Part shown: piece after piece, positions 1 through 12,581 of the stretch | Position numbering within the stretch: position 1 is the stretch's first letter | How the letters are laid out: every line of letters starts with the position of its first letter | Source of the DNA: Acinetobacter sp. | GTDB lineage: Bacteria > Pseudomonadota > Gammaproteobacteria > Pseudomonadales > Moraxellaceae | Reading direction: 5' to 3' | DNA length: 12,581 bases | NCBI GenBank assembly: GCA_030152675.1 | Contig: JASLIY010000193.1 | Coordinates: 1-12,581, forward strand | Program-made: the position numbers and the translations under genes | Notes under the pieces: generated by a model | The model's input: the letters and a program-made list of their open reading frames with translations, nothing else | What the model was told of the DNA's origin: nothing | The model's database searches: none

Positions 1-1727
1 CCGGTGATGTTGATACCACGGGAAGTATTTTTATCCACGATCAGGTTCTGTAGATTTAAACGTACCCCACCCGCCACATAGCCACCGGCCTCACCCGCCA
101 CTGTATTCGAAATAAATACTTGATTGAGACCAATCACTGCACCGTCGAGATTCTTAAAGATCGGATTGGCCAAGATCATGCGTACCGTTACAGATTTATC
201 ACTGTCACTGTAGTTGGTCGCACCCGTCGTCCCGATTACATATTGTTGCACGCCAAAATTATCTTTCAGACTGACCGGATCAACCACAGCACACTGATCA
301 GATGTTAACTGATCTGCGTTGGCCATATTGGTGCGAATATCACCATTGGCTTCAATCACAATACTCAGCTTTTCAGGCGGCAAGCTGGTTTGTGTGCCAT
401 AGTCAAAAGTTAAGGTGGCATAGAGTGGGAAGATATATTGCTCACCATTGTGCACGGTATTCGGCGTCAAAAACACTCGACGATCCAAGTAGGCCGCTGG
501 ATTGCTTCTAAAGATATCGATCGAGCCCGTATACTGCTCACCGGCTAAGTTCTGACTCCATTTGCCATACACGCTCGGATCACTAGGGCCTTGTTTAAAG
601 CCAGTGGTAAATTTATACAGTGACTCATTGCCCGCAATGGTGGTGCCATTAAAGAACGTCCCTTGTTCTAGACGCATGCGATCGACCGTGTTGCCCGCAG
701 TCGCCAGCTCCAATGCCTGACCGATTTTTTTAGACAAAGGATTGATCCAGTTTAACTGCGCGTCGGCATTGAGTTTTTTCGGCTGTACTTGGGTAATCAA
801 ATTCATCCGCGAGACATTGGGTACTGCTTCGGTTCCCGTATTCAAAGGCTTGCCAGTCCATTGCAATGCATAGCCCAAGGTCTGCCCCTGACGCGTGGTT
901 AATGAATATAAACTGGCGATGGATTCATTGCCTGAGGCGCTTTTTCCAGTAAAGCCAGCGAGATCGAGATTGGCGCCAGTCATCGATAAAAACTCAGCAA
1001 TGTAAATATTCACATTGGAGAGATTGACCAACTGCTGTGCGACTTGCATGGCGGTTTGTTCATCGATGCGCGAGACATCCAACCAAGGTTTTAGTTTGGC
1101 CTCATAACTGCCATCGGCGAAACTTTTTGCATCCACCGACGCCTCAAGTGTGCTCAATTCATTCTTAAACTGATCGCTGAGATTCACCGGCTGTAGATCA
1201 CCCGCTTGGTCTTGGTTTTGCGCTACCGCAATACTTTGGAAAACACGAACCAGTGCGACCAGAACGCGAAAAGTTTCATCCTCAAGGCTGGCACGCTGCG
1301 CCGGCTTGCCCGTCATCCCCGCAGCAATATCAAGCAGGCTCACCTGTGTCGGTTGCCCCACAGTGTATTTAGGATTCAATGCGCCCAGATCGACCTCTCC
1401 AAGGCTGATTCGTTTATCCGTGGTTGTGCCTTGAATATAAAATTTAGCCGTGTCCTGAATCGCACAGCCACCGGTAACCACGTTCTGGCTCAACTCGGTA
1501 TTAAAGTGGTTATTGTGATCACTTTTACAGTCAAAGTTAATCCCAGACGCGGGATAATCCAACACAAAGGTTTGGCATTGATTTGAGGAAGCCAAACAAC
1601 CATTGGTCGAGGTCACCACACCACTATTTGGATTTTCATTGATGGATGCGCTTTCGCCGCCACATGCGGCCAGTAGTGAAACTAAACTCGTTAAGGCCAA
1701 AGGGCGTATTATTTTTTGCTGTGTCAT
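1..1727 (-). CDS. filF: FilF, large surface-associated lipoprotein (C-terminus cut by window edge)
   Basis: The reading frame is open for 575 codons from an ATG at 1727 to the left edge, so the C-terminus is missing. The N-terminus is a lipoprotein signal: Lys5 and Arg8, a hydrophobic stretch, then the lipobox Leu19-Ala20-Ala21-Cys22. Gly-Gly follows the Cys, with no Asp at +2, which favours outer-membrane sorting. After the Cys comes a Ser/Asn-rich linker with several further cysteines (NGC, NQC, FDC, GGC), then a long Asn/Thr-rich region likely to be beta-rich. The start is supported by AGGAT 11 nt upstream. It is recognised as FilF from its place as the last gene of the fil cluster and from its lipoprotein character; 'pilus assembly' is an inherited label with no pilin or usher domain seen. 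It follows filE by 156 nt with no terminator between, so co-transcription is likely. Its molecular role is unknown; it may be a surface anchor or adhesin for the exported FilA product. Confidence 0.8.
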   Translation of the reverse strand, partial: MTQQKIIRPLALTSLVSLLAACGGESASINENPNSGVVTSTNGCLASSNQCQTFVLDYPASGINFDCKSDHNNHFNTELSQNVVTGGCAIQDTAKFYIQGTTTDKRISLGEVDLGALNPKYTVGQPTQVSLLDIAAGMTGKPAQRASLEDETFRVLVALVRVFQSIAVAQNQDQAGDLQPVNLSDQFKNELSTLEASVDAKSFADGSYEAKLKPWLDVSRIDEQTAMQVAQQLVNLSNVNIYIAEFLSMTGANLDLAGFTGKSASGNESIASLYSLTTRQGQTLGYALQWTGKPLNTGTEAVPNVSRMNLITQVQPKKLNADAQLNWINPLSKKIGQALELATAGNTVDRMRLEQGTFFNGTTIAGNESLYKFTTGFKQGPSDPSVYGKWSQNLAGEQYTGSIDIFRSNPAAYLDRRVFLTPNTVHNGEQYIFPLYATLTFDYGTQTSLPPEKLSIVIEANGDIRTNMANADQLTSDQCAVVDPVSLKDNFGVQQYVIGTTGATNYSDSDKSVTVRMILANPIFKNLDGAVIGLNQVFISNTVAGEAGGYVAGGVRLNLQNLIVDKNTSRGINIT

Positions 1728-1756
1728 GTCTATGGTCTATCCTATTGATTTTAATG

Positions 1757-1840
1757 TCTGAATATTTGTCTTCATGCCTTGATCTCTATCTTCATCTCTG
1801 AATATCTATCTTCAGGCCTTGATCTGTGTGCGATCTGTGT
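1757..1840. repeat. Imperfect 20-bp tandem repeat in the filE-filF spacer
   Basis: The spacer falls into 20-bp blocks at 1761, 1781, 1801 and 1821. Blocks 1761-1780 and 1801-1820 match at 17 of 20 positions. The block at 1781 shares the core CTATCTTCA with the block at 1801. Seen at double period, 1757-1785 and 1797-1825 match at 26 of 29 bases. The last block itself contains GATCTGTGT twice, 11 bp apart. On the filF transcript this lies about 30-110 nt upstream of the start codon. No protein longer than a dozen codons is encoded. Confidence 0.7.
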
Positions 1841-1883
1841 TCGGTGTTGCTGTTGTTGTCTGTGCTTGCCGTGTCGCTGCTGC

Positions 1884-3443
1884 TTATCGGATCACGCTCA
1901 ATTTAAACTGCCCTTGATTGGACAATTGTGAGGCATCGATATCAATCGCGGATGCCAGTGGGGTCACAAACAAATACACCGCATCTTGTGGTTTTTTCAG
2001 CACCCCTTCGAGTGAGGCATACTGAAACTTACTTTCGCCTGACTGCTGATTCTTAAATCCACTCACGCCTTCAATCACACAACCTTGTCGATCCAGAAAA
2101 ACCACCAAGGGCCAGTAATAGGTTGGAATCTTTTGGCGAGAGGCATAGGAGGTAAATAAGATCTCACTGATACTGGCGTCGATCCGTGCCACCTCATAGC
2201 TAAACTGCTCATTGATCGGGGCCACGGGCCAAAAGCCGATATCACGATTTTTACTGCTCAAGGTTTTAGCTTTATCAAGCTTTTTACCCTCAAAACATGT
2301 TTGTTCGAGTGCATCCACCACGTCTTTTTTCGACATGCGCTGATACTCAGGTGCCAAGGCCTTCGGCAAATCCGCCAGTGAATCTTTATTGCGCCATGCG
2401 CCCAAGATCGATGCCGTAATGCCTTTTTCACGTTCTACGGTTTGCATACGATGTGTGCCCGAACCACCGACTTCAGGCATCACATAAAAACGTTTCTTGC
2501 CTTCGAGATTAAACTCACGCTGTTCGAGATACTCCGCATCGACATAGCGTTCACCATCAATTTCAGTAAAGTTCTGTTCTGCAGCAGGATCGACTGCGGT
2601 CCTGTTTGATCGCGTACTGGGCGTGGCACTCCGGATCACATACCGCTGCTCTTTCTCCGCGGCAAAATCCGTCTGCGCTGAGGCGACCTGACTCATCTCA
2701 CTGCTATTTTGCGGCTGTAACACGGACAACGGCGTGCGACGTGGCACGGCGATGGGTGCAGTCGCGGCGATGGCAGGCTGTGAATGCTGCGGTACTTTTT
2801 CTACACTGGGCGGAAGGACTGGTTTTGATGCCACAGGCTGTGCCTGTATTTCTGCTGATTCAGTGGACTGTCGCGGCGCAACGACTGTGCGACCAACAGA
2901 CGTATTGGCTTGAGATTCAGCCTGTTGCTGCGTCGCTGGCGCTGCAGTGTTTTGGGCTGGCGCTCGTGTTGTTTTTGGTGGCGCTTGCCGTGCTGGTTGT
3001 GGTGGCGCTTGCATCTGTACCGGTGCTGATGGCACCAGAACCTGCGGTGGTTGCTGTGGCTGAGCTTGAATGACCTGCGCTACAGGCGCTTGAACTTGGC
3101 GCGATGGCTGCTGCACCGAGTCTTGGGTCATCTTCGCTTGGGAATTGGCCTGCGCGCTGGGCGCTCGCAGCGGTTGTTGCACTTGAGGTGCTGTGGGTTG
3201 CGCTGTCGGTTGTGGCTGTGTTGGTCGCTCTGCTGTCTGTGCTGCTGAGGCAGCTGGTTGCACTGTGGCTTGCGGTGTCTGCTGCTTTTTCACAGCCTGC
3301 TTTTGTTGTACCACAATCGGATGCCCATCCGGTCCAATAATCGTATAAAAGTACGCAGCAACAGGCACAGAAAAGCTCACCAAACTCAGTAGCGTGAGCC
3401 CGCGCAAACTGCGCTTCAGCAGATCAAGATTGTTCAAAGACAT
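1884..3443 (-). CDS. filE: FilE, exported protein with Pro/Gln/Ala-rich linker and MalM-like C-terminal domain
   Basis: This encodes 519 residues. The start chosen is the ATG at 3443 because AGGAG lies 7 nt upstream, overlapping the filD stop codon. A longer frame from 3524 would run 71 nt into filD and put 27 non-signal residues in front. Residues 1-30 form a signal peptide (Lys10, Arg11, Arg14, hydrophobic core, Val-Ala-Ala before Tyr31). Residues 31-45 (YFYTIIGPDGHPIVV) resemble the small DUF4124-like motif. About residues 46-250 are low complexity, very rich in Gln, Pro and Ala, like a periplasm-spanning linker. A folded region begins near 285, with two cysteines at 383 and 455 that could form a disulfide. 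Residues about 405-500 read like MalM of the maltose operon, including a Leu-Glu-Gly-Val stretch. It sits 10 nt after filD and is clearly in the same operon. Function is unknown; envelope bridging or scaffolding is my inference. Confidence 0.8.
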   Translation of the reverse strand: MSLNNLDLLKRSLRGLTLLSLVSFSVPVAAYFYTIIGPDGHPIVVQQKQAVKKQQTPQATVQPAASAAQTAERPTQPQPTAQPTAPQVQQPLRAPSAQANSQAKMTQDSVQQPSRQVQAPVAQVIQAQPQQPPQVLVPSAPVQMQAPPQPARQAPPKTTRAPAQNTAAPATQQQAESQANTSVGRTVVAPRQSTESAEIQAQPVASKPVLPPSVEKVPQHSQPAIAATAPIAVPRRTPLSVLQPQNSSEMSQVASAQTDFAAEKEQRYVIRSATPSTRSNRTAVDPAAEQNFTEIDGERYVDAEYLEQREFNLEGKKRFYVMPEVGGSGTHRMQTVEREKGITASILGAWRNKDSLADLPKALAPEYQRMSKKDVVDALEQTCFEGKKLDKAKTLSSKNRDIGFWPVAPINEQFSYEVARIDASISEILFTSYASRQKIPTYYWPLVVFLDRQGCVIEGVSGFKNQQSGESKFQYASLEGVLKKPQDAVYLFVTPLASAIDIDASQLSNQGQFKLSVIR

Positions 3444-3453
3444 GCCCGCTCTC

Positions 3454-5118
3454 CTACCATCTCTTTCTATAGTTGAGACCCAAAATCGTGACTTTGGTGT
3501 TGGTCTTGATATTGAGGCCGGCATAAGGATTCAATAACAAATTATCCACGCCGTTTTTATTGGCCATATCACTGGTATTGGCAGGAATATTATCGCGGCT
3601 TCTCAAGAAGCCCACAGACAAGTCAATATCGGTGTTTTCATCCCAACGATAGCCCAGACCTAGGCCAAATAACTGCGCATTATTGATCGGAATCATCGGA
3701 TTACGTTTGTTATCTGGAATAGAACTGGTCCGTGGTTCATAGCCGGCACGCAGTTTTAAACGATCGGTTGCGCTATATTCTAGACCCACACCCCAGTTCC
3801 ACGGCGAACTAAAACCCAGTGGCAAAGATAAACTATTGTCTGTGACGTCATTGGACAATAGCTTGGCGATTTGCAGCGCGGTGATCTGGCGATCAAATTC
3901 AAATTTGAACTTTTCCCAAGCCTTAAAGTCAGTCCAGCCCACATCGACATTGACCTGTAATTTGGGTAGGACTTTATATTTGATCCCGGCTTGCACGTGA
4001 GCAGGATATTCCAAATCCATCGACATCAAACCAGACTCTGTGGCTGGCATATCACTCGGAAAACCAAGCAGTGCCGCCAAGATCTGACCGGTCGCAGAGG
4101 AGTTGAGGCCTTTGATCAACTCACGGGGCGCATTGGCATTGTCAATAAAGTAGTTGCCTTTCAGACGCATCTTGGAAGCACTTTGATACACCACCCCCAA
4201 ACCAAAGTCATCGGTCGGTTCCCACAGTACCCCAAGGTTAAAGCTAGGAGTCAAACTCTGCTCCATCGAGACCTGCATTTGACCAAATTTACCAAATGGA
4301 TTCATGCCCTCATTGGCATTACACATCCCAAATAAAATCAAATCCGTCACGATATTGGAGTTGCCACGAAACGGTGCACAGATCGACTCATCCACCATCC
4401 GCAGTACCCCGATCATCTCATTGGGAAAACGCAGATCGGTTTTTAAAGCCACCGCTTGATAGGACATGCCCACAGAGGCACCAATCGACAGTTCATCGTT
4501 GACTTCCAAGGCAATCGACGGTGATAAATACGTGATCCGCTCAATCGCCACCTGCTGACCCATAAAGTTACCTGGATTACCATCACTCGAACCAAAACCC
4601 GCCACCATCGGCGCATAGACTGCTGTGGCATAAGTCAGTTTAGAGCCCGGTGGGTTATAGGAAATCCCGCCTGCTGGCGCGATCACCGGCCACCCTTCTC
4701 CAAGGTCAATCACTTTTTTCAGAAACGGGATATATAAACTGGCATGTTCCACATCGCCACGTACCGAACCTTTATAATCCGTACATAGGCCAGAAGGATT
4801 ATCTGGACGGTCATTACAGATCAATGGATCATCTGAATAGCCAAATACGTTATAGCCAGCCGGTGCTGAAAATTCTTTTTGAATATCGAAGTTGGCCACG
4901 ATGCCCTGCACATCGGTTTGCAGCCCTTTGAGCTTGGTCAAGCCGGCAGGGTTAAAATGCACCGCACTAATCCCCGGCGGATCAGCCGTCACCGCATTGC
5001 CCATGGTCAAAGAGCGAATGTCCACCGACAAATTTAAACCCAACTGCGCCAAAGCACTGCTGCTTGTTCCCGCGACGATCAGCGCGGTGATTAAGGGGCG
5101 TAAACGTAGGTACTGCAT
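3454..5118 (-). CDS. filD: FilD, FadL-family outer-membrane transport protein
   Basis: This encodes 554 residues. The N-terminus is a clear signal peptide (Arg5, Arg7, hydrophobic core, Ser-Ala-Leu-Ala before Gln25). The mature start has the FadL/OmpP1-type hatch region, including VHFNPAGLTKLKG with the family Asn-Pro-Ala motif. The rest is a succession of amphipathic strands, as expected of a 14-strand barrel, with phrases such as GVGLEYSATDRLKLRAGYEP. It ends in Trp, fitting an outer-membrane barrel C-terminus. FadL proteins pass long-chain fatty acids or other hydrophobic molecules across the outer membrane by lateral opening; the ligand here is unknown. At 554 residues it is longer than E. 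coli FadL, with long loops. The start is supported by GGGAG 7 nt upstream, directly after the filC stop. The gaps to filC (12 nt) and filE (10 nt) indicate translational coupling. The family call is firm; the role in the fil cluster is inferred. Confidence 0.88.
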   Translation of the reverse strand: MQYLRLRPLITALIVAGTSSSALAQLGLNLSVDIRSLTMGNAVTADPPGISAVHFNPAGLTKLKGLQTDVQGIVANFDIQKEFSAPAGYNVFGYSDDPLICNDRPDNPSGLCTDYKGSVRGDVEHASLYIPFLKKVIDLGEGWPVIAPAGGISYNPPGSKLTYATAVYAPMVAGFGSSDGNPGNFMGQQVAIERITYLSPSIALEVNDELSIGASVGMSYQAVALKTDLRFPNEMIGVLRMVDESICAPFRGNSNIVTDLILFGMCNANEGMNPFGKFGQMQVSMEQSLTPSFNLGVLWEPTDDFGLGVVYQSASKMRLKGNYFIDNANAPRELIKGLNSSATGQILAALLGFPSDMPATESGLMSMDLEYPAHVQAGIKYKVLPKLQVNVDVGWTDFKAWEKFKFEFDRQITALQIAKLLSNDVTDNSLSLPLGFSSPWNWGVGLEYSATDRLKLRAGYEPRTSSIPDNKRNPMIPINNAQLFGLGLGYRWDENTDIDLSVGFLRSRDNIPANTSDMANKNGVDNLLLNPYAGLNIKTNTKVTILGLNYRKRW

Positions 5119-5130
5119 AGCAGTTCTCCC

Positions 5131-6318
5131 TTATTTAGGCTTCTTCTTCACTAAGCCGAGAATATCGAGTGGAAATGACAGTCCTAGGGACACATCTGGT
5201 GAATCTTCGGTCAAGCCGATGCCCAAGGTGCCATTGACAATCGTTTCAGGAGATACACGCACCCCCAAAGCCACGGAGAACATGGCACTGGTCTGATCTG
5301 CTGCGTTAAATTTTTCACCATTTTGATAGGTGAATGAGGTATTGGTATTAAAGGTTTGCTGATAAGACATGGTCATCGAGACATCGTAGTTAAACGAATA
5401 AGCAAAGCCGAATGAGAAGCCGCCGGTGATCCCAGGATCAAATTCTTCTAATATTCGATTGCCGCTATCGCCCCCCCCACGGATTTGATTTAGACCTGTT
5501 TCTTTAAAGCCATAGTTGGCCGAAGCCGAAGCAAATAACACCACTGGATCAATATATTTACGTGTACTGGCACCAATACCGACCGAGTAATAGCCCTTAC
5601 CGGTAGAAAGATCGTTCAAGGGATCAATTTCATATGGGCTGTCACCGGTTTTGGTCGACACATTACCAAATAAAATCAAGGGTAAGCGCCCCGGCTTCAA
5701 CTCAAAGGGTTCCCAACGTGCCCCAAAGCCAATATCGCCGAGACCGGCAGTGCTTCGATCTTTCATGGTTTCAGACTTGGCCACCAAGGGGATGGAAGCC
5801 GTTAAAGTCAGGTTGTCGCGTAGACCATATTGCCCAGTAAAGGTATTGGTGATGGTATGGTTGGCATCCTCATCCACGCGCAACTGAAACAACGCACCTT
5901 GATCCATGGCCGCGTTGATTTGAGTATCACGATAGTAGGAGTAGTCCAAGTCATAATAAGTGGAAATTTCACCTCGTTTAATCAACGAGTATTGACGCTC
6001 ATTTGAAGTAAATACTTCTTGTAAATTGGTTTCTTGGGTCGCATCACCCTCTTTTTTCTGCAAGGCTTCTGCGGCCTGTTGTCCTTGGTTCGCCACGGCG
6101 ACGGGTGCTGGCGATGCTTGCTCTGCTTGCGCTTGTTCGGCATCTAACACGGCGCTTGTCTGCTGCGCTTCGATGTGCGTTTGTTGTGCAACGGATGGCG
6201 TTGGAACCACGTCACTTGCTTGATGTGCTGAGCTGACTGGCTCTTGTGCATGTACGATGCCCATCAATGACAAAATACTGATGCTGAGCAAGCTTCGTTT
6301 CATCCATTGATTTCTCAT
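5131..6318 (-). CDS. filC: FilC, outer-membrane beta-barrel of the meta-pathway transporter/FapF-like type
   Basis: This encodes 395 residues. Residues 1-24 are a signal peptide ending His-Ala before Gln25. Residues 25-98 are rich in Gln, Ala and Glu and likely helical, possibly coiled coil. Near 99-130 comes a plug-like segment (NLQEVFTSNERQYSLIKRG) running into the first strand, YYDLDYSYYRD. Residues 110-390 are alternating amphipathic strands with short turns, typical of a 12-strand barrel of the Phenol_MetA_deg/transporter family. The C-terminus ends in a Lys-rich tail instead of an aromatic residue, slightly unusual for a barrel. From memory, the order of helical region, plug-like segment and barrel matches FapF, the exporter of Pseudomonas amyloid. 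AAGGA lies 5 nt before the ATG and supports this start over Met6. filB ends 51 nt upstream. I infer an export channel for FilA; barrel and location are firm, substrate is not. Confidence 0.8.
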   Translation of the reverse strand: MRNQWMKRSLLSISILSLMGIVHAQEPVSSAHQASDVVPTPSVAQQTHIEAQQTSAVLDAEQAQAEQASPAPVAVANQGQQAAEALQKKEGDATQETNLQEVFTSNERQYSLIKRGEISTYYDLDYSYYRDTQINAAMDQGALFQLRVDEDANHTITNTFTGQYGLRDNLTLTASIPLVAKSETMKDRSTAGLGDIGFGARWEPFELKPGRLPLILFGNVSTKTGDSPYEIDPLNDLSTGKGYYSVGIGASTRKYIDPVVLFASASANYGFKETGLNQIRGGGDSGNRILEEFDPGITGGFSFGFAYSFNYDVSMTMSYQQTFNTNTSFTYQNGEKFNAADQTSAMFSVALGVRVSPETIVNGTLGIGLTEDSPDVSLGLSFPLDILGLVKKKPK

Positions 6319-6369
6319 AATGTTCCTTCCAAAGTCTGATTTTTTAATTGGGTAAAGCAGTTCGTTGAT

Positions 6370-7203
6370 TTATTTACGTTTATAGTAAAGTCGCATATAG
6401 GTTCGCGTGGCCTGATTATAAGTATTTGAATTTGGGTCTTTATCAATCACCAAACGCATGGTCGACGCCTTGTCAGCGATCTTATTCATATAATCTGTTG
6501 AGAATTGCACATCGACAAAAGCGTGTCGGTTGACCGTGGCATCTTCGACATGTCTTAAGTCCGAGTCTTGTAGTGCCAATAGATTTTTTTGCTGTTCTTT
6601 GGGCACTTGAATCAGAAATAAAGTATTGTTTTCCCAGATTTGTTTAAATCTTTCTTCATCAAAGCTGATATTGCCGAGCGCGGGGTCCGCCACATAGACG
6701 CGACCATCTTTATAGGCTTTATAAACCACAAAATGTTTAAATCCGGCATAGGTAATCGGCACGATGGCAGGTTGATCTTGTTTGATCAGATCGGAAAATT
6801 CCCCACGATAGCCCCCACTCTCAAAACCAATCGCGGTCACGAAGCGCTTCATATCCAGCAATGAGAAGCTGCGGCGTTCTACGATGCGTTCATATTCGCC
6901 AAAACGTAATAAGCCTTCCATGGTTTGTAATTCATTCAGTTGCGTACCGACATGTCCATTCAGTAAGGTGGTAAGCGCTGCAGAGCCACAACTATAATCG
7001 TAGGCCTGACGAACAATGCCCTTAAATTGGCTTTCCACAGCAGGTTGAATACTGACCACTTCACGGTGGTTGCGGCTAAAGGACTGATCACGTGGATCAG
7101 CAAGCTCTGAGTAATACACGGCGTCAGCGGGTTTAGGTTTTACATCGAGCGCGTGACTGGCAAAGTAATAAATCAATGCCGAACCTAAAGTAATTTCAAT
7201 CAT
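6370..7203 (-). CDS. filB: FilB, exported C39-family (papain-like) cysteine peptidase
   Basis: This encodes 277 residues. The C39 catalytic set is intact: Gln66 as oxyanion residue, Cys72 in YDYSCGSAALTTLL, His157 in FKHFVVYKAY, and Asp173 in VYVADPALG. Cys72 is the only cysteine in the protein. The C39 domain covers about residues 55-200, and a further 75-residue C-terminal extension of unknown fold follows. Residues 1-18 look like a weak signal peptide (LGSALIYYFASHA, then cleavage after Ala18), but the n-region has no positive charge and contains Glu3. There is no ABC-transporter part, so this is not a bacteriocin ABC exporter; stand-alone C39 proteins such as FapD occur in surface-fibre export operons. 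The likely role is trimming FilA or another exported protein in the periplasm. The ATG at 7203 has only an A-run upstream and no Shine-Dalgarno; in-frame stops precede it directly. Confidence 0.82.
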   Translation of the reverse strand: MIEITLGSALIYYFASHALDVKPKPADAVYYSELADPRDQSFSRNHREVVSIQPAVESQFKGIVRQAYDYSCGSAALTTLLNGHVGTQLNELQTMEGLLRFGEYERIVERRSFSLLDMKRFVTAIGFESGGYRGEFSDLIKQDQPAIVPITYAGFKHFVVYKAYKDGRVYVADPALGNISFDEERFKQIWENNTLFLIQVPKEQQKNLLALQDSDLRHVEDATVNRHAFVDVQFSTDYMNKIADKASTMRLVIDKDPNSNTYNQATRTYMRLYYKRK

Positions 7204-7225
7204 ATTTTTTTACTATTCAAGTGTC

Positions 7226-7239
7226 GGCAATCAATTGCC
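7226..7239. promoter_or_regulatory. Short inverted repeat 23 nt upstream of filB
   Basis: GGCAAT and ATTGCC form perfect 6-bp arms with a 2-bp spacer, ending 22 nt from the filB start codon. With only two bases between arms it would be a poor RNA hairpin, so a protein-binding site is more likely than an RNA switch. No match to a known operator is recognised. Confidence 0.35.
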
Positions 7240-7302
7240 TAATTTCGACGTTGTTTTAGAGTAATCACTCCAATCATACATTACAAAAAAAGACATGGGT
7301 CT

Positions 7303-7319
7303 ACTATTTTTTAAATAGT
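7303..7319. promoter_or_regulatory. AT-rich perfect palindrome in filB leader, possible operator
   Basis: ACTATTT and AAATAGT are perfect 7-bp arms around a 3-bp spacer. The site would sit just downstream of the transcription start predicted from the candidate filB promoter at 7338-7366, a position where a repressor could block initiation or early elongation. AT-rich DNA makes chance palindromes more likely, so this is a candidate only. Confidence 0.35.
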
Positions 7320-7337
7320 GCCAAGTTTACTAAGATT

Positions 7338-7366
7338 ATTTTGTATTTAACTTTGTTGACGCTCAA
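7338..7366 (-). promoter_or_regulatory. Candidate sigma70 promoter for filB-filF
   Basis: On the minus strand, TTGAGC (7361-7366) and CAAAAT (7338-7343) are separated by 17 bp, each matching 4 of 6 consensus bases. It lies downstream of the filA terminator and would give a leader of roughly 130 nt before filB. It is the best-spaced pair I found here, but both boxes are weak, and the operon could also be reached by read-through from filA. Confidence 0.3.
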
Positions 7367-7412
7367 TATTGCAGCGATTTAGCAGGGTGCATCAAACATA
7401 CAAAATCATTTG

Positions 7413-7439
7413 AAAATAAAAACGCGTGATCAACACGCG
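7413..7439 (-). terminator. Intrinsic terminator after filA
   Basis: On the filA transcript, CGCGTG pairs perfectly with CACGCG around a 5-nt loop (7423-7439). It is followed at once by TTTTTATTTT, and lies 26 nt after the filA stop codon. This is a standard rho-independent terminator between filA and filB and implies that filA mRNA is made in excess of the filB-F mRNA. The flanking A-run also gives a short U-tract on the other strand, but no gene reads into it from that side. Confidence 0.8.
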
Positions 7440-7465
7440 CTTTTATCAAAGATCAAATAACCTGA

Positions 7466-8326
7466 TTAATGCCCAGTGATGGTAATTTTGGCACCGGCAT
7501 TGGTACCGTTCATCATTTTTAAGCCACTGATTTGAACATCACCAATGGATTTGGCATCTTTGCTGCCCAATTGGATGCTTTGAACATAGATATCAGTTTT
7601 ATTTTTCAAGGCCGTCACTTCTAAACCTTTGGTGGTTACTGCAACATCCACATTCAGATCCATGTTGGCAGAACCGGTATCGTTGATCTTGATTTTGCCC
7701 AATACGATATCACCGCCACCCGCAGCAGAAGCATCATGCAAAGACAAGTTGTTAATTTCTAGGCCACCAACCATTGAACCATTGAGCTTGATCATGGCGC
7801 CTTGTGGTGTATTCCCCAATTGAATATTTGCCGTCATCTGACCGGTTGAAAGAGAAAGTCCATTCAGGATCACAGCTTCAGTATCATCGGTAACACTATA
7901 GAATCCGCCCGCCTCTTCCTCAGCTTTCTTGGCTGCAGATACATTGATTTGACCCAGCTCGATATCAAGGCCAGCAATCGCAGCGCCAATATTTAAGAAA
8001 GCTTTACCTGCACCACCATCGGTATCAATAGTGATATCGGCAAAGTTACCCGAAGCCAGCGCAGAGTTGGTCGAAAGTTTTACATCATTAATATTGATTG
8101 CGCCCGCACTCGCAGTTCCACCCAAGCCCGTTTTATCAGCTGCCAAACCATCGCCATCGTAAACAGAGATACGATCGATGCCGATTTCAGTCAAACCAAT
8201 ACCGATGCTGATCCCATCTTGACCCGTGGTTGCACTCAGTGCAGCATCATCCATTTGTTGCATTGCCATTGCGTTGGCACTGATCGCTAAAGAAGAAACT
8301 AAAGCAAGTTTAGTGAATAATTTCAT
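7466..8326 (-). CDS. filA: FilA, secreted Gly-rich beta protein, likely substrate of the fil export genes
   Basis: This encodes 286 residues. Residues 1-19 or 1-21 form a strong Sec signal peptide (Lys2, Lys6, hydrophobic core, cleavage at ANA or AMA). Next comes MDDAALSATTGQDGI (25-39), which matches the spacing of a double-glycine leader if Gln36 is -1: Gly35 at -2, Thr33 at -4, Leu30 at -7, Met25 at -12. The rest is alternating hydrophobic and polar residues with many Gly, Ala, Asn and Asp, suggesting a beta-solenoid or other repetitive beta fold. There is no cysteine and no tryptophan, which is common in extracellular fibre or surface proteins. The protein ends in KITITGH. GGAG lies 7 nt before the ATG. 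The gene is followed by its own terminator, consistent with a high-copy structural product next to low-copy export genes. No pilin motif (prepilin cleavage site or donor strand) is seen. Identity as FilA is supported by gene order beside pabB; function is inferred. Confidence 0.85.
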   Translation of the reverse strand: MKLFTKLALVSSLAISANAMAMQQMDDAALSATTGQDGISIGIGLTEIGIDRISVYDGDGLAADKTGLGGTASAGAININDVKLSTNSALASGNFADITIDTDGGAGKAFLNIGAAIAGLDIELGQINVSAAKKAEEEAGGFYSVTDDTEAVILNGLSLSTGQMTANIQLGNTPQGAMIKLNGSMVGGLEINNLSLHDASAAGGGDIVLGKIKINDTGSANMDLNVDVAVTTKGLEVTALKNKTDIYVQSIQLGSKDAKSIGDVQISGLKMMNGTNAGAKITITGH

Positions 8327-8330
8327 ACGG

Positions 8331-8344
8331 ACTCTCCCAAGAGT
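8331..8344 (-). promoter_or_regulatory. Hairpin overlapping the filA ribosome binding site
   Basis: On the filA transcript, ACTCT and AGAGT are perfect 5-bp arms around the loop TGGG, and the Shine-Dalgarno GGGAG is split between the loop and the 3' arm. The structure ends 4 nt before the ATG. The stem is short and may be only marginally stable, but it is placed to limit ribosome access. Confidence 0.35.
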
Positions 8345-8424
8345 TTTTTTTCATTGTTGGCTACTCTCCGTCGTTTCAAGTTGTTTTTATTTTTCTGACA
8401 ACCGAAACATCATCCTTGAGTAGT

Positions 8425-8434
8425 TGCTTAAGCA
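8425..8434. promoter_or_regulatory. 10-bp palindrome between filA and pabB
   Basis: TGCTTAAGCA is a perfect palindrome, flanked by TAG on one side and CTA on the other with a one-base offset. It lies about 100 nt upstream of the filA start. It could be an operator half of the divergent control region; no known regulator is recognised. Confidence 0.3.
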
Positions 8435-8457
8435 CTATTAAACTAACCCTATGTTAC

Positions 8458-8485
8458 TTTTTGTTCAACTATTGTTGAACAAAAA
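8458..8485. promoter_or_regulatory. 12-bp perfect inverted repeat, probable operator of filA and/or pabB
   Basis: TTTTTGTTCAAC and GTTGAACAAAAA are perfect 12-bp arms around the 4-bp spacer TATT. It lies in the divergent region, about 130 nt from the filA ATG and 87 nt from the pabB ATG. As both genes are transcribed away from it, a terminator makes little sense; a dimeric repressor or activator site is more likely. The layout (AAC, four bases, GTT) is of the kind bound by TetR-family regulators, but I cannot assign one. Confidence 0.6.
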
Positions 8486-8510
8486 CACAGAATACCCGAT
8501 AAACGGTATT

Positions 8511-8539
8511 TACACATCACCAAGCCAAACAACTATAGT
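8511..8539 (+). promoter_or_regulatory. Candidate sigma70 promoter for pabB
   Basis: TACACA (8511-8516) and TATAGT (8534-8539) are 17 bp apart. The -10 box is strong (5 of 6) and the -35 is moderate (4 of 6). The start point would fall near 8546, giving a leader of about 26 nt. No clear Shine-Dalgarno is present in that leader. Confidence 0.5.
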
Positions 8540-8571
8540 AAGATTATTCATCTTCAGACCCGAACGCTGTA

Positions 8572-9996
8572 ATGTCAGATATTTCAATTTTCCAAAAAAA
8601 TTTGTGTAGTTCAGCACGCAGCAGTGCAAGTATATTGCAGGCACTGCAGTCATTATTCGGCTGTGTTTACCTCGAAGATCAAAATTCCCCGACAATTTCG
8701 TTTCTCCCAGAGGCATATTGTCAACTGAGTGAACATAAAACAGACATTCAGACCAGAACAAACTTACAACACTATAGTTACATTGAGCACGATGGCGATC
8801 AGCACGAATTTATAAAACACTTTATTCAGTTTCAGCCTGCACCCGCAGCAGATCCGAGCAGCACTCCAACCCAGCAGACCACCACAGGTTTTCAAGGCGG
8901 CTATATCGGTTTCGTTGATTACAACTATGCCGCCAAGCAACAGGTCAAGAGTGCCACAACGGCCCAACCACAGTTTTATATCGGTCGCTATAGCAGTTAT
9001 TTAAAACGCGAATCTCAGCATTGGGTCTTTTATAGCCATGATGCGCAGGCCAGCGATATCTTCACCCTAGTGACCTCCTTGATCGACAATCACAACACCA
9101 AACTCAATACAGACCAGACGCCAAACGCAGCTAAGTTTCATCTGACACAGCCCTGTGCTGCCGTGTGGACAAAAGCACAATATCAACAAGCCTTTGAACG
9201 AGTTCAGGATTACATCCGTGCTGGCGATTGTTATCAAATCAATCTCACTCAGCAATTTACAGGCACAGCAAAGGGCGACTTGATCGAAACTGCCGAGCAA
9301 TTCTGGCAATTGACTGCAGCCCCCTATGCCGCTTATCTCAAATTGCCAGACTTTGAATTACTCAGTTGTTCACCCGAGTTATTTATCGAGTTTGCGGCGG
9401 ATCGCCGTCTGATCACCAAACCGATTAAAGGCACCATGCCCCGATCGACAGACCCAGTACAGGATGCTCAGTACAAGCAACAACTGATTCAATCCGAGAA
9501 AGACCAAGCTGAAAATTTGATGATCGTAGATTTATTGCGTAACGATCTGAGTGTTTATGCTGAAGTTGGCTCGGTGAAAACCCCAAAACTGTTTGAGATT
9601 GAATCTTTTAATCAAGTGCATCACATGGTCAGCGAAGTCAGAGCCACACTGACCCAAGACACCAATCCCTTTGATTTACTGATGTCGGCACTACCGGGGG
9701 GATCGATTACCGGTGCACCCAAGATCCGTGCGATGCAGATCATTGAAGAGCTCGAAGTTGCACCGCGCGGTGCCTATTGTGGCTCAATTGGTTATTTTAA
9801 TTTTGATGGTACTGGGCGCTGGAACATCTTGATTCGTTCCATCCAAAAACATCAAGATCAGGTCAGTCTTTGGGCGGGTGGTGGCATCACCATCGCCTCA
9901 GACTGTGATGCCGAATATCAAGAATGTTTCGACAAAGTGTCTGCCCTACTGGATTTACTCAATACTTGGCAACAAGCACCCGCGGGTTCGCTTTAG
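8572..9996 (+). CDS. pabB: Aminodeoxychorismate synthase component I
   Basis: This encodes 474 residues. PabB converts chorismate to 4-amino-4-deoxychorismate, using ammonia from the PabA glutaminase, on the way to p-aminobenzoate and folate in the cytoplasm. The chorismate-binding domain fills the C-terminal two thirds, from about residue 200: YIRAGDCYQINLTQQF (214-229), PIKGT with the PabB-type active-site Lys286, AENLMIVDLLRND (313-325), HHMVSEVRATL, LPGGSITGAPK (374-384), RGAYCGSIGYFNFDG, and a final AEYQECFDK. The N-terminal part has FQGGYIGFVDYNY, typical of the family. Lys in PIKGT and the lack of a visible LLES tryptophan-binding motif favour PabB over anthranilate synthase TrpE. An in-frame stop at 8539 and no other ATG between support the start, though no good Shine-Dalgarno precedes it. 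It is transcribed alone, divergent from filA and convergent with hisC. Confidence 0.92.
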   Translation: MSDISIFQKNLCSSARSSASILQALQSLFGCVYLEDQNSPTISFLPEAYCQLSEHKTDIQTRTNLQHYSYIEHDGDQHEFIKHFIQFQPAPAADPSSTPTQQTTTGFQGGYIGFVDYNYAAKQQVKSATTAQPQFYIGRYSSYLKRESQHWVFYSHDAQASDIFTLVTSLIDNHNTKLNTDQTPNAAKFHLTQPCAAVWTKAQYQQAFERVQDYIRAGDCYQINLTQQFTGTAKGDLIETAEQFWQLTAAPYAAYLKLPDFELLSCSPELFIEFAADRRLITKPIKGTMPRSTDPVQDAQYKQQLIQSEKDQAENLMIVDLLRNDLSVYAEVGSVKTPKLFEIESFNQVHHMVSEVRATLTQDTNPFDLLMSALPGGSITGAPKIRAMQIIEELEVAPRGAYCGSIGYFNFDGTGRWNILIRSIQKHQDQVSLWAGGGITIASDCDAEYQECFDKVSALLDLLNTWQQAPAGSL

Positions 9997-10033
9997 TCCT
10001 ATACAGCGCTAAATCCATAAAATCTAAATTAAA

Positions 10034-10063
10034 AATCGCCCAGTGAGTCATCACTGGGCGATT
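10034..10063. terminator. Terminator shared by convergent pabB and hisC
   Basis: A perfect 13-bp stem (10034-10046 with 10051-10063) closes a 4-nt loop, GTCA. On the minus strand it is followed by ATTTTTAATTT-type sequence, a good U-tract ending the hisD-hisC transcript about 75 nt past hisC. On the plus strand the tail is ATTGTGTTG, a weaker U-tract, so for pabB it acts less strongly or as a block to opposing polymerase. Confidence 0.88.
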
Positions 10064-10135
10064 GTGTTGATGTCTGCATTGTCAGCCGCAATTGAGCTCA
10101 ATCAACAGCTTCATACGGCAGATTGGATCAGAACC

Positions 10136-11230
10136 TTAAATCAGAATCTCGTTTTTTAAGGTCTCGAGTAAACGTAAGTTCTGTGCCTCTGTGCCTACGG
10201 TAATACGTAAGAACTGATTAATCCGTGGTTGATTGAAGTAACGTACGATGATGCCACGCGCACGTAAGGCTTGCGCCAACTCACCCGCATCATGCTCAGG
10301 TTGACGTGCAAAAACGAAATTGGCTTTGGACGGCAGAACCTCAAAACCCAAAGCACTTAATCCTGCCGAGAGACGTTCACGACAGTCGATCACTTTTTGG
10401 CACTGTGCTTCAAAGTAAGCCTGATCCTCGAAGGAAGCCGTCGCTGCGGCAATCGCAAAGCGATCAATCGGATAAGAGTTAAAGCTATTTTTGACCGCTT
10501 CAAGCGCTGCAATCAAATGCGGTTGCGCAATGGCAAAGCCGACACGTAATCCGGCGAGTGAACGTGACTTCGAGGTGGTCTGACATACCACTAGATTTTC
10601 ATATTGCGCGACCAAGCTCACGGCAGAAGCGGCACCAAAATCAACATAAGCCTCATCGATCACCACCACCGTATTGGGATTGGCTTTTAAGATCACTTCG
10701 ATCTGATCCAAGCTCAGCGCAATACTGGTTGGTGCATTTGGATTGGCAATGATCACGCCACCATTGGGCTGTGCATAGTCTGAAGGCTCAATTTCAAAGC
10801 GATCATTCAGAGGCACCAAACGCGTTTTGACTTCAAAAAACTGGCTATAAACGGGATAAAAGCTATAGCTAATATCTGGATGTAGGATTGGCTGTTGTTG
10901 TAGAAAAAACGCTTTAAAGATATGCGCCAAGACTTCATCCGAACCGTTACCCACAAAGACTTGCTCTACCGGTACTTGCTGCTGCTGCGCAATCGCCTGT
11001 TTCAATACACTGGCGTCTGGATCAGGATACAAACGTAAGGCATCCGCAGAATGTGCCAGCACTGCCTGTACCGCCTCAACCACTTTGGCTGAAGGTGGAT
11101 ACGGGTTTTCATTGGTGTTGAGTTTTAAAAGATTTTCAACCTTCGGTTGTTCACCCGGCACATAAGGCTCTAGTGTGCGAACCATCGGGCTCCAAAAGCG
11201 CATGTGTTGCGTCGTTGTTTGTGTAGACAT
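10136..11230 (-). CDS. hisC: Histidinol-phosphate aminotransferase
   Basis: This encodes 364 residues, the usual HisC length. HisC transfers an amino group from glutamate to imidazole acetol phosphate to give L-histidinol phosphate, using pyridoxal phosphate. Fold-type I aminotransferase motifs appear in order: [11 protein letters not shown] (37-47), [15 protein letters not shown] (94-108), [23 protein letters not shown] (161-173), [10 protein letters not shown] (189-198) with the cofactor-binding Asp and Tyr, and [16 protein letters not shown], in which Lys221 should form the Schiff base. FLRITVGT near the C-terminus holds the substrate-carboxylate Arg. The start at 11230 has GGGAAA-like sequence upstream; the alternative Met10 has no better site. 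It follows hisD by 79 nt and is surely co-transcribed, ending at the strong hairpin before pabB. Other aminotransferases of this fold are possible in principle, but the hisD neighbour settles the call. Confidence 0.94.
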
Positions 11231-11244
11231 TTTTATTTCCCAAT

Positions 11245-11290
11245 CTCAGTTCAGTCGCTCCGTTCTGTTCGATGCAGAGGCTGAGCTGAG
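11245..11290 (-). promoter_or_regulatory. Potential stem-loop in the hisD-hisC spacer
   Basis: On the transcript, CTCAGCTCAG pairs with CTGAACTGAG at 9 of 10 positions around a 26-nt loop, just upstream of the hisC ribosome binding site. No U-tract follows, so it is not a terminator. It could affect mRNA processing or translation of hisC, or be without effect. Confidence 0.25.
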
Positions 11291-11309
11291 GATATAAGCT
11301 TAACCTGAC

Positions 11310-12581
11310 TTAATAACGATAACGTGCTGAACGCGCGTGTGCATCCAAGTCTTCTTGTTGGGCCAGAATATCAGCGGTTTTCGCCAATGTTTTCACGCCT
11401 TGCTCAGAACACATGATCAGACTGCTGCGTTTTTGGAAGTCATAGACACCCAGCGGAGAAGAGAAACGTGCAGTGCCCGATGTCGGCAAGACATGGTTCG
11501 GACCCGCACAGTAATCACCAATGGCTTCAGGGGTAAAGCGCCCCATAAAAATCGCCCCAGCATGTCGAATCTGCTCAGACATCTGTTCCGCGTCATCCAA
11601 GCATAACTCAAGATGCTCTGGTGCCACCTGATTGATCAAGTCGATCGCTTCTTGACGATCTTTGACCAAGACCAACGCGCCCCGATTGGCAATTGAAGTT
11701 CGAGCAATCTCGGCTTTTGGCAAGGCAGCCAAATGCGTTTCGATTGCGACAGCCACAGCATCCAACAATTGTGGATCTGGACTGATAAAAATTGCTTGAG
11801 CCACAGTATCATGCTCGGCTTGGGACAAGACATCCATCGCCAGCCATTCTGAATTATTTTCCCCTTCGGCATAAACCAAAATCTCAGATGGCCCCGCGAT
11901 CATATCGATCCCAACCTGACCAAACACCGCACGTTTTGCCGCAGCAACAAAGCGATTGCCTGGTCCTGTGATTTTATCCACTGCTGGAATGCTTGCCGTA
12001 CCATAAGCCAATGCTGCAACCGCTTGCGCGCCGCCAATCGTAAATACCCGATCAACCCCGGCCAGATATGCAGCCGCAAGTACCAACGGATTCAACTCAC
12101 CCTTCGGTGCAGGCACCACCATGATGATTTCAGGCACGCCCGCCACATGTGCAGGAATCGCATTCATCAACACCGATGATGGGTAGGAAGCCAATCCCCC
12201 CGGCACATAGATGCCAACTCGATCTAAGGGCGTGACTTTTTGACCTAAGGTATTGCCCAGTGCATCGACATAAGTCCAACCGTCTTGTTTCTGTGCCTGA
12301 TGGAAGGCACGAATCCGTTCAGCCGCCAACTCTAAGGCTTGACGTACTTCAGGATCGAGTCCTTCAAAGGCTGATTTTAATTGGGCTTGGCTGAGTTCGA
12401 GCTCTGAAAATTGATGCGCTGGATGTCGATCGAACTGTTGCGTAAGTTGAAGTACATGAGCATCACCATGCTGACGCACATCGGCGATGATTTGATCTAC
12501 AGTTTTTAAAAGTTCGGGATCACTCACTGTTTCAAAAGCCAACAAGTCTGCAAAAACTTGTTTAAAATTTTGATCTTGAGT
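11310..12581 (-). CDS. hisD: Histidinol dehydrogenase (extreme N-terminus beyond window edge)
   Basis: 423 codons are visible and the frame is open to the right edge. HisD oxidises L-histidinol to L-histidine in two NAD-dependent steps and needs zinc. Family motifs in order are [78 protein letters not shown] with zinc-ligand Gln and His, VAPEHLEL with the catalytic Glu-His pair, [20 protein letters not shown] with the zinc-ligand Asp, and a final [10 protein letters not shown] carrying the last zinc-ligand His. A TTG at 12545 could be misread as the start, but twelve more codons in frame ([12 protein letters not shown]) match the HisD N-terminus as I remember it from Acinetobacter, so only about five residues should be missing. 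hisC follows 79 nt downstream; hisG is the expected gene upstream, outside the window. Confidence 0.95.

Follow-up and report, generated by a model that had tools for sequence, protein, structure and literature searches.

The stretch of DNA analysed here, referred to below as the window, comprises 12,581 nt of an Acinetobacter sp. genome (contig JASLIY010000193.1). Its open reading frames include the fil cluster, six genes, filA to filF, all on the minus strand (Table 1). We consider it probable that fil exports a fibre by a Sec-dependent, FapF-type route with C39 processing, in which FilA would be the fibre subunit, FilB its processing peptidase and FilC its channel through the outer membrane. 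All six proteins score above the NCBIfam cut-offs for Fil, under 'putative pilus' names, while no chaperone, usher, pilin, sortase or pilus ATPase is among the families that they match at E ≤ 1.

FilA contains no cysteine and 13.6% glycine, and it belongs to PF19657 (45 bits; cut-off 27) and NF050077 (328 bits; cut-off 220); self-BLAST detected no internal repeats. FilB matches PF03412 at 63.1 bits (cut-off 22) and, with Q66, C72, H157 and D173 all present, is a C39 peptidase. FilD is assigned to the FadL/TodX family with 215 bits, FilE has an alternative longer start at 3524 that is also possible, and the N-terminus of FilF has a lipobox-like LLAACGG, read by eye. A preliminary description of this DNA had listed a secreted, Cys-free, Gly-rich beta protein, a stand-alone C39 peptidase with its four catalytic residues intact, a FadL barrel, a linker protein and a large lipoprotein, together with the lack of any pilus assembly component, and all of this was borne out. 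Its picture of FilC as a barrel with a signal peptide and a helical N-terminal extension also stands, with the qualification that the helices are short and of low confidence.

Table 1. Features of the fil cluster in the window
Feature	Position	Strand	Description
filA	7466-8326	-	Sec signal peptide followed by a C39-type leader and a mature part predicted to be all-beta (DUF6160 / NF050077); putative subunit of the fibre
filB	6370-7203	-	C39 cysteine peptidase, N-terminal hydrophobic segment, Q66/C72/H157/D173 intact
filC	5131-6318	-	Signal peptide, then a variable linker and short helices (low confidence) preceding an outer-membrane barrel of FapF type
filD	3454-5118	-	FadL/TodX-type outer-membrane barrel
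filE	1884-3443	-	Hydrophobic N-terminus, Pro/Gln/Ala-rich linker, FilE_C domain
filF	3-1727	-	Large predicted lipoprotein; 3' end incomplete, cut by window end
Leader MDDAALSATTGQ predicted to be recognised by FilB (residues 25-36 of FilA)	8219-8254	-	Predicted mature start D37
Intrinsic-terminator-like stem-loop directly 3' of filA	7419-7443	-	T-rich tail to about 7409

Of 80 loci with an Acinetobacter name, 77 have the gene order filABCDEF, that of the laboratory strain Acinetobacter baylyi (L023) included; the remaining three read BCDEF, ABCD and ABCDF, and FilA was found by tblastn in 79 of the 80. The genes are separated by 262 (A-B), 51 (B-C), 12 (C-D), 10 (D-E) and 156 (E-F) bases. In the filA-filB gap, a terminator-like stem-loop is present in 72 of the 72 Acinetobacter loci scored, against an expectation of 0.2 in shuffled sequence; the count leaves out the 8 of 80 loci in which a crude pattern found no FilA. 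Given a stem-loop in this position, filA is probably transcribed beyond the level of the machinery genes, as expected for a major subunit, since the terminator would allow more FilA than machinery to be made.

The FilA leader and its predicted cut site

Behind its Sec signal FilA carries the segment MDDAALSATTGQ, which is followed directly by DGISIGIG. Relative to the predicted cut, the segment has Met at -12, Ala at -8, Leu at -7, Thr at -4, Gly at -2 and Gln at -1. The consensus for C39 leaders is Leu(-12)-x3-Glu(-8)-Leu(-7) before a double glycine, with Val, Leu or Ile at -4; Thr at -4 is tolerated by LahT, and the leader residues at -4, -7 and -12 occupy a groove (PMC6363468). A double-glycine leader in the sense of hydrophobic residues at -12, -7 and -4 and Gly at -2 is therefore recognisable in FilA as M, L, T and G. 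Of the 120 FilA homologues listed (the best 120 of 1605 matches to the FilA query), 118 retain the leader, all with Gln at -1. The 120 relatives listed for 9xfv, a solved structure described below, give the same figure, 118 with the leader and Gln at -1 throughout. Two further homologue lists comprised the best 120 of 1675 and the best 120 of 561 matches, and profile A2 was built from the window's FilA with 55 of 120 listed homologues. Wherever an organism was named for a listed FilA homologue, it was Acinetobacter.

In the FilA model a short helix spans residues 27-34 and strands begin at residue 38, with low confidence in that part. As the leader is located behind a Sec signal, the cut by FilB would be expected to take place in the periplasm. 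In this respect fil differs from the C39 ABC transporters such as LahT and PCAT1, with which it has in common the type of peptidase (C39) and a leader spaced at -12/-8/-7/-4/-2: there the peptidase lies inside the ABC exporter whereas FilB stands alone, and the FilA leader, unlike theirs, follows a Sec signal and has Gln at -1. We propose, from sequence, that FilA has a C39-type leader with a precise predicted site, Q36-D37, and that it has this in common with FapE of the Fap system. We believe this to be new, as in the open-licence PMC literature we found no report of a link between fil and Fap or of a leader for FapD-type peptidases.

FilB and FilC compared with the Fap system

Outside Fil, the nearest named relative of FilB is FapD (NF058616, 109 bits, E 2e-31), although this score is below the cut-off of 330. 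Likewise, FilC reaches 71 bits (E 8.2e-20) against the FapF equivalog model NF058560, which has a cut-off of 700, and its only sequence matches in the PDB are to FapF (E 1.7e-10). The preliminary description had likened FilC to FapF, and the fold agrees: FapF chains fill the first 18 of 720 Foldseek places, so that FilC has a FapF-type barrel fold rather than matching unrelated barrels only, and the first match beyond FapF is COG4313 4rl8 (E 1.7e-6). Profile A1 for this protein combined the window's FilC with 22 of 120 listed homologues.

This pairing of a barrel with a peptidase was also looked for in 274 genomes of the class. Of the 36 FapF-type barrels that score at least 36 bits there, 35 have a stand-alone C39 within 8 kb, and a FapF-type barrel accompanies 35 of the 48 places with a stand-alone C39 of at least 66 bits. 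These counts leave out 21 barrel matches below 36 bits and C39 matches below 66 bits, for example an additional stand-alone C39 frame with 52.5 bits in G052. COG4313 and Phenol_MetA_deg channels belong to the same barrel superfamily as FilC and FapF, as seen in 4rl8 and in a match to PF13557 in the FilC of L313 (a locus described below), whereas the window's FilC matched no Pfam model; in the passages of PMC6173800 that bear on COG4313 operons, no C39 partner had been reported.

Like fil, the Fap system of Pseudomonas (FapABCDEF) has a stand-alone C39 beside a FapF-type barrel, a Sec-exported cargo and a leader-bearing partner, which in Fap is FapE. The two differ in that FilA, which is not recognised by any Fap model at E ≤ 1, lacks the amyloid repeats of FapB and FapC, in that FilB and FilC fall under the Fap cut-offs, and in that fil has FilD, FilE and FilF in addition. 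FapE was matched by none of the six Fil proteins; the FapE of locus L270, used as a control, scored 334 bits against a cut-off of 250. Furthermore, both systems coexist: the genomes G291 and G525 each carry a fap operon, with FapD above its cut-off, and a separate fil-type C39 elsewhere. The proposal that fil is a Fap-type system thus stood with respect to FilB and FilC, which resemble FapD and FapF in sequence and, for FilC, in fold, and did not stand with respect to FilA or to the scores required for assignment. Judged by its protein sequences, fil would operate like Fap, yet it fails Fap membership.

Other putative leader-bearing cargo and distribution

We scanned for the exact C39 spacing behind a signal-peptide-like stretch, using 16 wrong spacings as the control. 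The exact spacing gave 56 matches at 42 of 69 stand-alone C39 loci (630 kb), compared with 10-32 for the wrong spacings, while 329 kb from genomes with no C39 match gave 4 and 5-11, respectively. By mature sequence the 56 matches form 26 clusters of unrelated proteins, the largest being FapE with FapB (14), FilA/DUF6160 (10) and a group of seven proteins, most of them small, that carry an RGG-F site. In the fap operons L312 and L270, FapE (8613-9353 and 8027-8776) has the leaders LKDQELAQLRGK and VRDAELALLRGR, each followed by Tyr, which gives an exact predicted cut site for FapD. Secretion of FapC requires the catalytic Cys of FapD, the mature N-terminal part of FapE yielded no peptides in mass spectrometry, and the target of FapD was said in 2017 to 'remain unclear' (PMC5557850); the wording of a 2025 review, in which FapD is 'thought to' process these two proteins, FapE and FapF, is no firmer (PMC12822426). 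With a shared leader and a cut site predicted to the residue, the question of the FapD target becomes testable.

In L201, L203-L208 and L330, C39 and FapF-type barrels have small secreted proteins beside them in which the double glycine is genuine (LRGG or MRGG, followed by F). Another group of stand-alone C39 (L221, L222, L224 and L279-L281) adjoins a different secreted protein that starts LPL(T/S)(I/V)E and is a predicted barrel in L279 (Pfam); leader-like small proteins are found near this group in L222, L224 and L281.

DUF6160 genes track FilB. In the family of A. pittii (159 genomes), DUF6160 is present in 67 genomes and a FilB-type C39, taken as at least 100 bits, in 63; both occur in 62, DUF6160 alone in 5, the peptidase alone in 1 and neither in 91, counts that are not independent events as the genomes are related by descent. 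The single genome with FilB alone, G331, has a contig that ends just upstream of filB. Those with DUF6160 alone are G315, G316, G319, G350 and G429, and among these FilC was found only in G316, as a fragment at a contig start. The class sample has DUF6160 in six genomes, each of them one of the 36 (of 274) in which a stand-alone C39 is present; here too the genomes are related to one another. In the order sample, DUF6160 was found in 15 of 20 C39 genomes tested, drawn from 23 with a stand-alone C39 frame, and frequently at several unlinked sites; leader-bearing DUF6160 genes in L357-L360 are distant from any C39. G144 and G257 (L122, L126, L130) have 15 and 17 DUF6160 matches, mostly short frames across many contigs, and one C39-barrel pair apiece.

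A second cluster, in Acinetobacter and its relatives, consists of four to six secreted proteins (five or six within Acinetobacter itself) of about 190-890 residues, nearly all leader-bearing, and adjoins a gene taken for dcd (L129, 2470-11865; L119, 10574-18570; L275, 6689-13212; L282, 2936-9866). Neither a C39 nor a FapF-type barrel lies in the stretch read, and we regard its products as probably further cargo of FilB and FilC.

These distributions lead us to lean, with rather less assurance than for fil itself, towards a broader view. A Sec signal plus a C39-type leader may be a general sorting tag, such that one periplasmic FapD-type peptidase and one FapF-type barrel mature and export many, often unlinked, cargos, among them FilA, FapE, the RGG-F proteins and the DUF6160 proteins found dispersed. 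Where the cargo is of the FilA family, such a system would be a separate class of pilus, joined through the N-terminal strand that removal of the leader frees, and 9xfv would be its first solved member.

The preliminary description had regarded FilD, FilE and FilF as additions specific to Acinetobacter, which is most likely wrong. In the order sample, filB, filC and filD are adjacent in 14 of 20 loci read, where FilB is 46-54% identical to the best query compared with 69-86% in the 80 Acinetobacter-named loci; because their FilB is so divergent, we place these loci outside Acinetobacter. One of the genomes, G304, has a FilB 54% identical to that of the window, a FilE above the cut-off and a FilF of 327 bits (cut-off 390).

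The proposed FilA fibre and competing explanations

An indication of what FilA forms comes from L313, the fil-type operon of G525, in which the models for FilA, FilB and FilD score 53, 290 and 519 bits, all below cut-offs tuned to Acinetobacter. Its FilA-like protein has a single PDB match, 9xfv_A, a 'bacteria pilus (like)' assembly of 25 chains with a karst cave as its source (E 1.4e-6); the start of the chain, DGVSIAG, aligns to DGISISG at residue 38 of the L313 protein. Profile A3, from 11 FilA-family proteins including that of the window, also has 9xfv as its sole match (E 2.6e-8 for the whole chain), with profile positions 38-119 aligned to chain residues 1-88 and 252-288 to 135-173, the latter being the C-terminus of both; each alignment is weak singly. 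Through the family profile, 9xfv is therefore related to FilA at both mature ends. As the window's FilA alone as a query did not reach 9xfv, the link runs through the family. The structure matches of FilA include very weak ones to lipid-carrier folds.

The entry numbers its 173 residues 38-210, starting at D38 just past a predicted cut, SGQ|DGVSI. A Burkholderiales protein of 210 residues, P0241, contains both printed stretches of 9xfv identically, at 38 and 172-210, and has IDDSTLSTVSGQ immediately before residue 38. Since the chain starts exactly where the leader ends, a cut is favoured over disorder for the missing 37 residues. 9xfv thus resembles FilA as a subunit of its family that starts right past the leader and ends at the family C-terminus, and differs in length (173 residues compared with the 250 predicted for mature FilA of the window). 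We found no paper describing 9xfv in the open-licence PMC literature.

As a fimbrial subunit FilA had been named before. In Acinetobacter sp. Tol 5 on triacylglycerol, long curved fibres were deduced to be Fil fimbriae, and a FilA band was identified by Edman degradation (PMC3498257); Tol 5, which shares with the window the genus and the name FilA, had its Fil fimbriae traced to Hori et al. 2011, cited in PMC3498257 and PMC11784438, and the latter, a 2024 paper, names FilA as the subunit of the Fil pilus. The processing site and the Fap route are what we add. The earlier suggestion that FilA is the fibre fits both 9xfv and the Tol 5 work, whereas the accompanying statement that fil is not a pilus system has to be given up: the one structure found to be related to the FilA family was deposited as pilus-like, and Fil fimbriae had already been named. 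What emerges looks like a pilus-like fibre built by a Fap-type route, and this offers an assembly route both for the 9xfv structure and for the Fil fimbriae of Acinetobacter.

Based on these observations, we propose the following model. The Sec signal would take FilA across the inner membrane into the periplasm, where FilB would recognise the leader and cut after Q36, freeing the N-terminus DGISIGIG, and mature FilA would then exit through the FilC barrel; both the cleavage by FilB and the export by FilC are suggested by sequence and gene arrangement. Once outside, FilA would polymerise into a pilus-like fibre. Subunits may be joined through the freed N-terminal strand, which is the weakest point of the proposal. 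FilD, FilE and FilF would be accessory parts, with FilF perhaps serving as the surface anchor. Several observations weigh against this model. The Gly, Ala or Ser found at -1 of a double-glycine leader is replaced by Gln in FilA, the topology of FilB is uncertain, and the gene neighbourhood of 9xfv is missing. In addition, G429, the genome of L275, has four leader-bearing genes, and neither FilB nor FilC was found in it; it may represent gene loss, an incomplete assembly or a true counter-example.

The alternative that survives best, though we think it doubtful, is that FilA is the fibre while the essential substrate of FilB lies elsewhere, in the FilC linker or in FilE, and another protease makes the FilA N-terminus. 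The FapF linker has been proposed as a possible target of FapD (PMC5557850), and the FilC linker is likewise long and variable and is modelled with low confidence; nevertheless, the near-invariant leader with Gln at -1 in the FilA homologues and 9xfv relatives listed, and the way in which DUF6160 genes follow FilB, argue for FilA itself as the substrate. It is very improbable that fil is a true but diverged Fap amyloid system: the peptidase-barrel pairing is identical, but FilB and FilC score well under the Fap cut-offs, FilA has no Fap match and a fap operon occurs alongside a fil-type C39 in the same genomes. We give equally little credence to FilC and FilD as uptake channels for oily substrates, of the COG4313 and FadL types, with FilA a lipid-binding or oil-adhesion protein and not an exported polymer. 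The second place of 4rl8 behind FapF, the FadL-type FilD, a weak match of the L313 FilD to an alkane-uptake model (20.5 bits), the lipid-carrier folds among the FilA matches and the triacylglycerol on which the Tol 5 fibres were seen are all in keeping with such a role, whereas the near-constant presence of a C39 peptidase beside FapF-type barrels and the 25-chain assembly of 9xfv speak for export of a polymer. That fil makes a pilus of the classical kinds (chaperone-usher, type IV or sortase) is suggested by nothing other than the 'putative pilus system' names in the databases and has next to no probability, as it is contradicted by the gene content, with no such component among the six proteins.

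Reports on the expression of fil in Acinetobacter are in the literature. FilF is increased in pellicles (PMC3203104), filA is up 2.7-fold with mucin (PMC5757984), and a proteomic table for a type I secretion mutant lists FilA at -3.6 (PMC8376066). FilF has also been studied as a vaccine candidate, immunisation giving better survival of mice (PMC4751259). Upstream of filA, the remainder of the window (8572-12581) holds ordinary housekeeping genes, which by eye are a divergent pabB-like gene followed by hisC-like and hisD-like genes.

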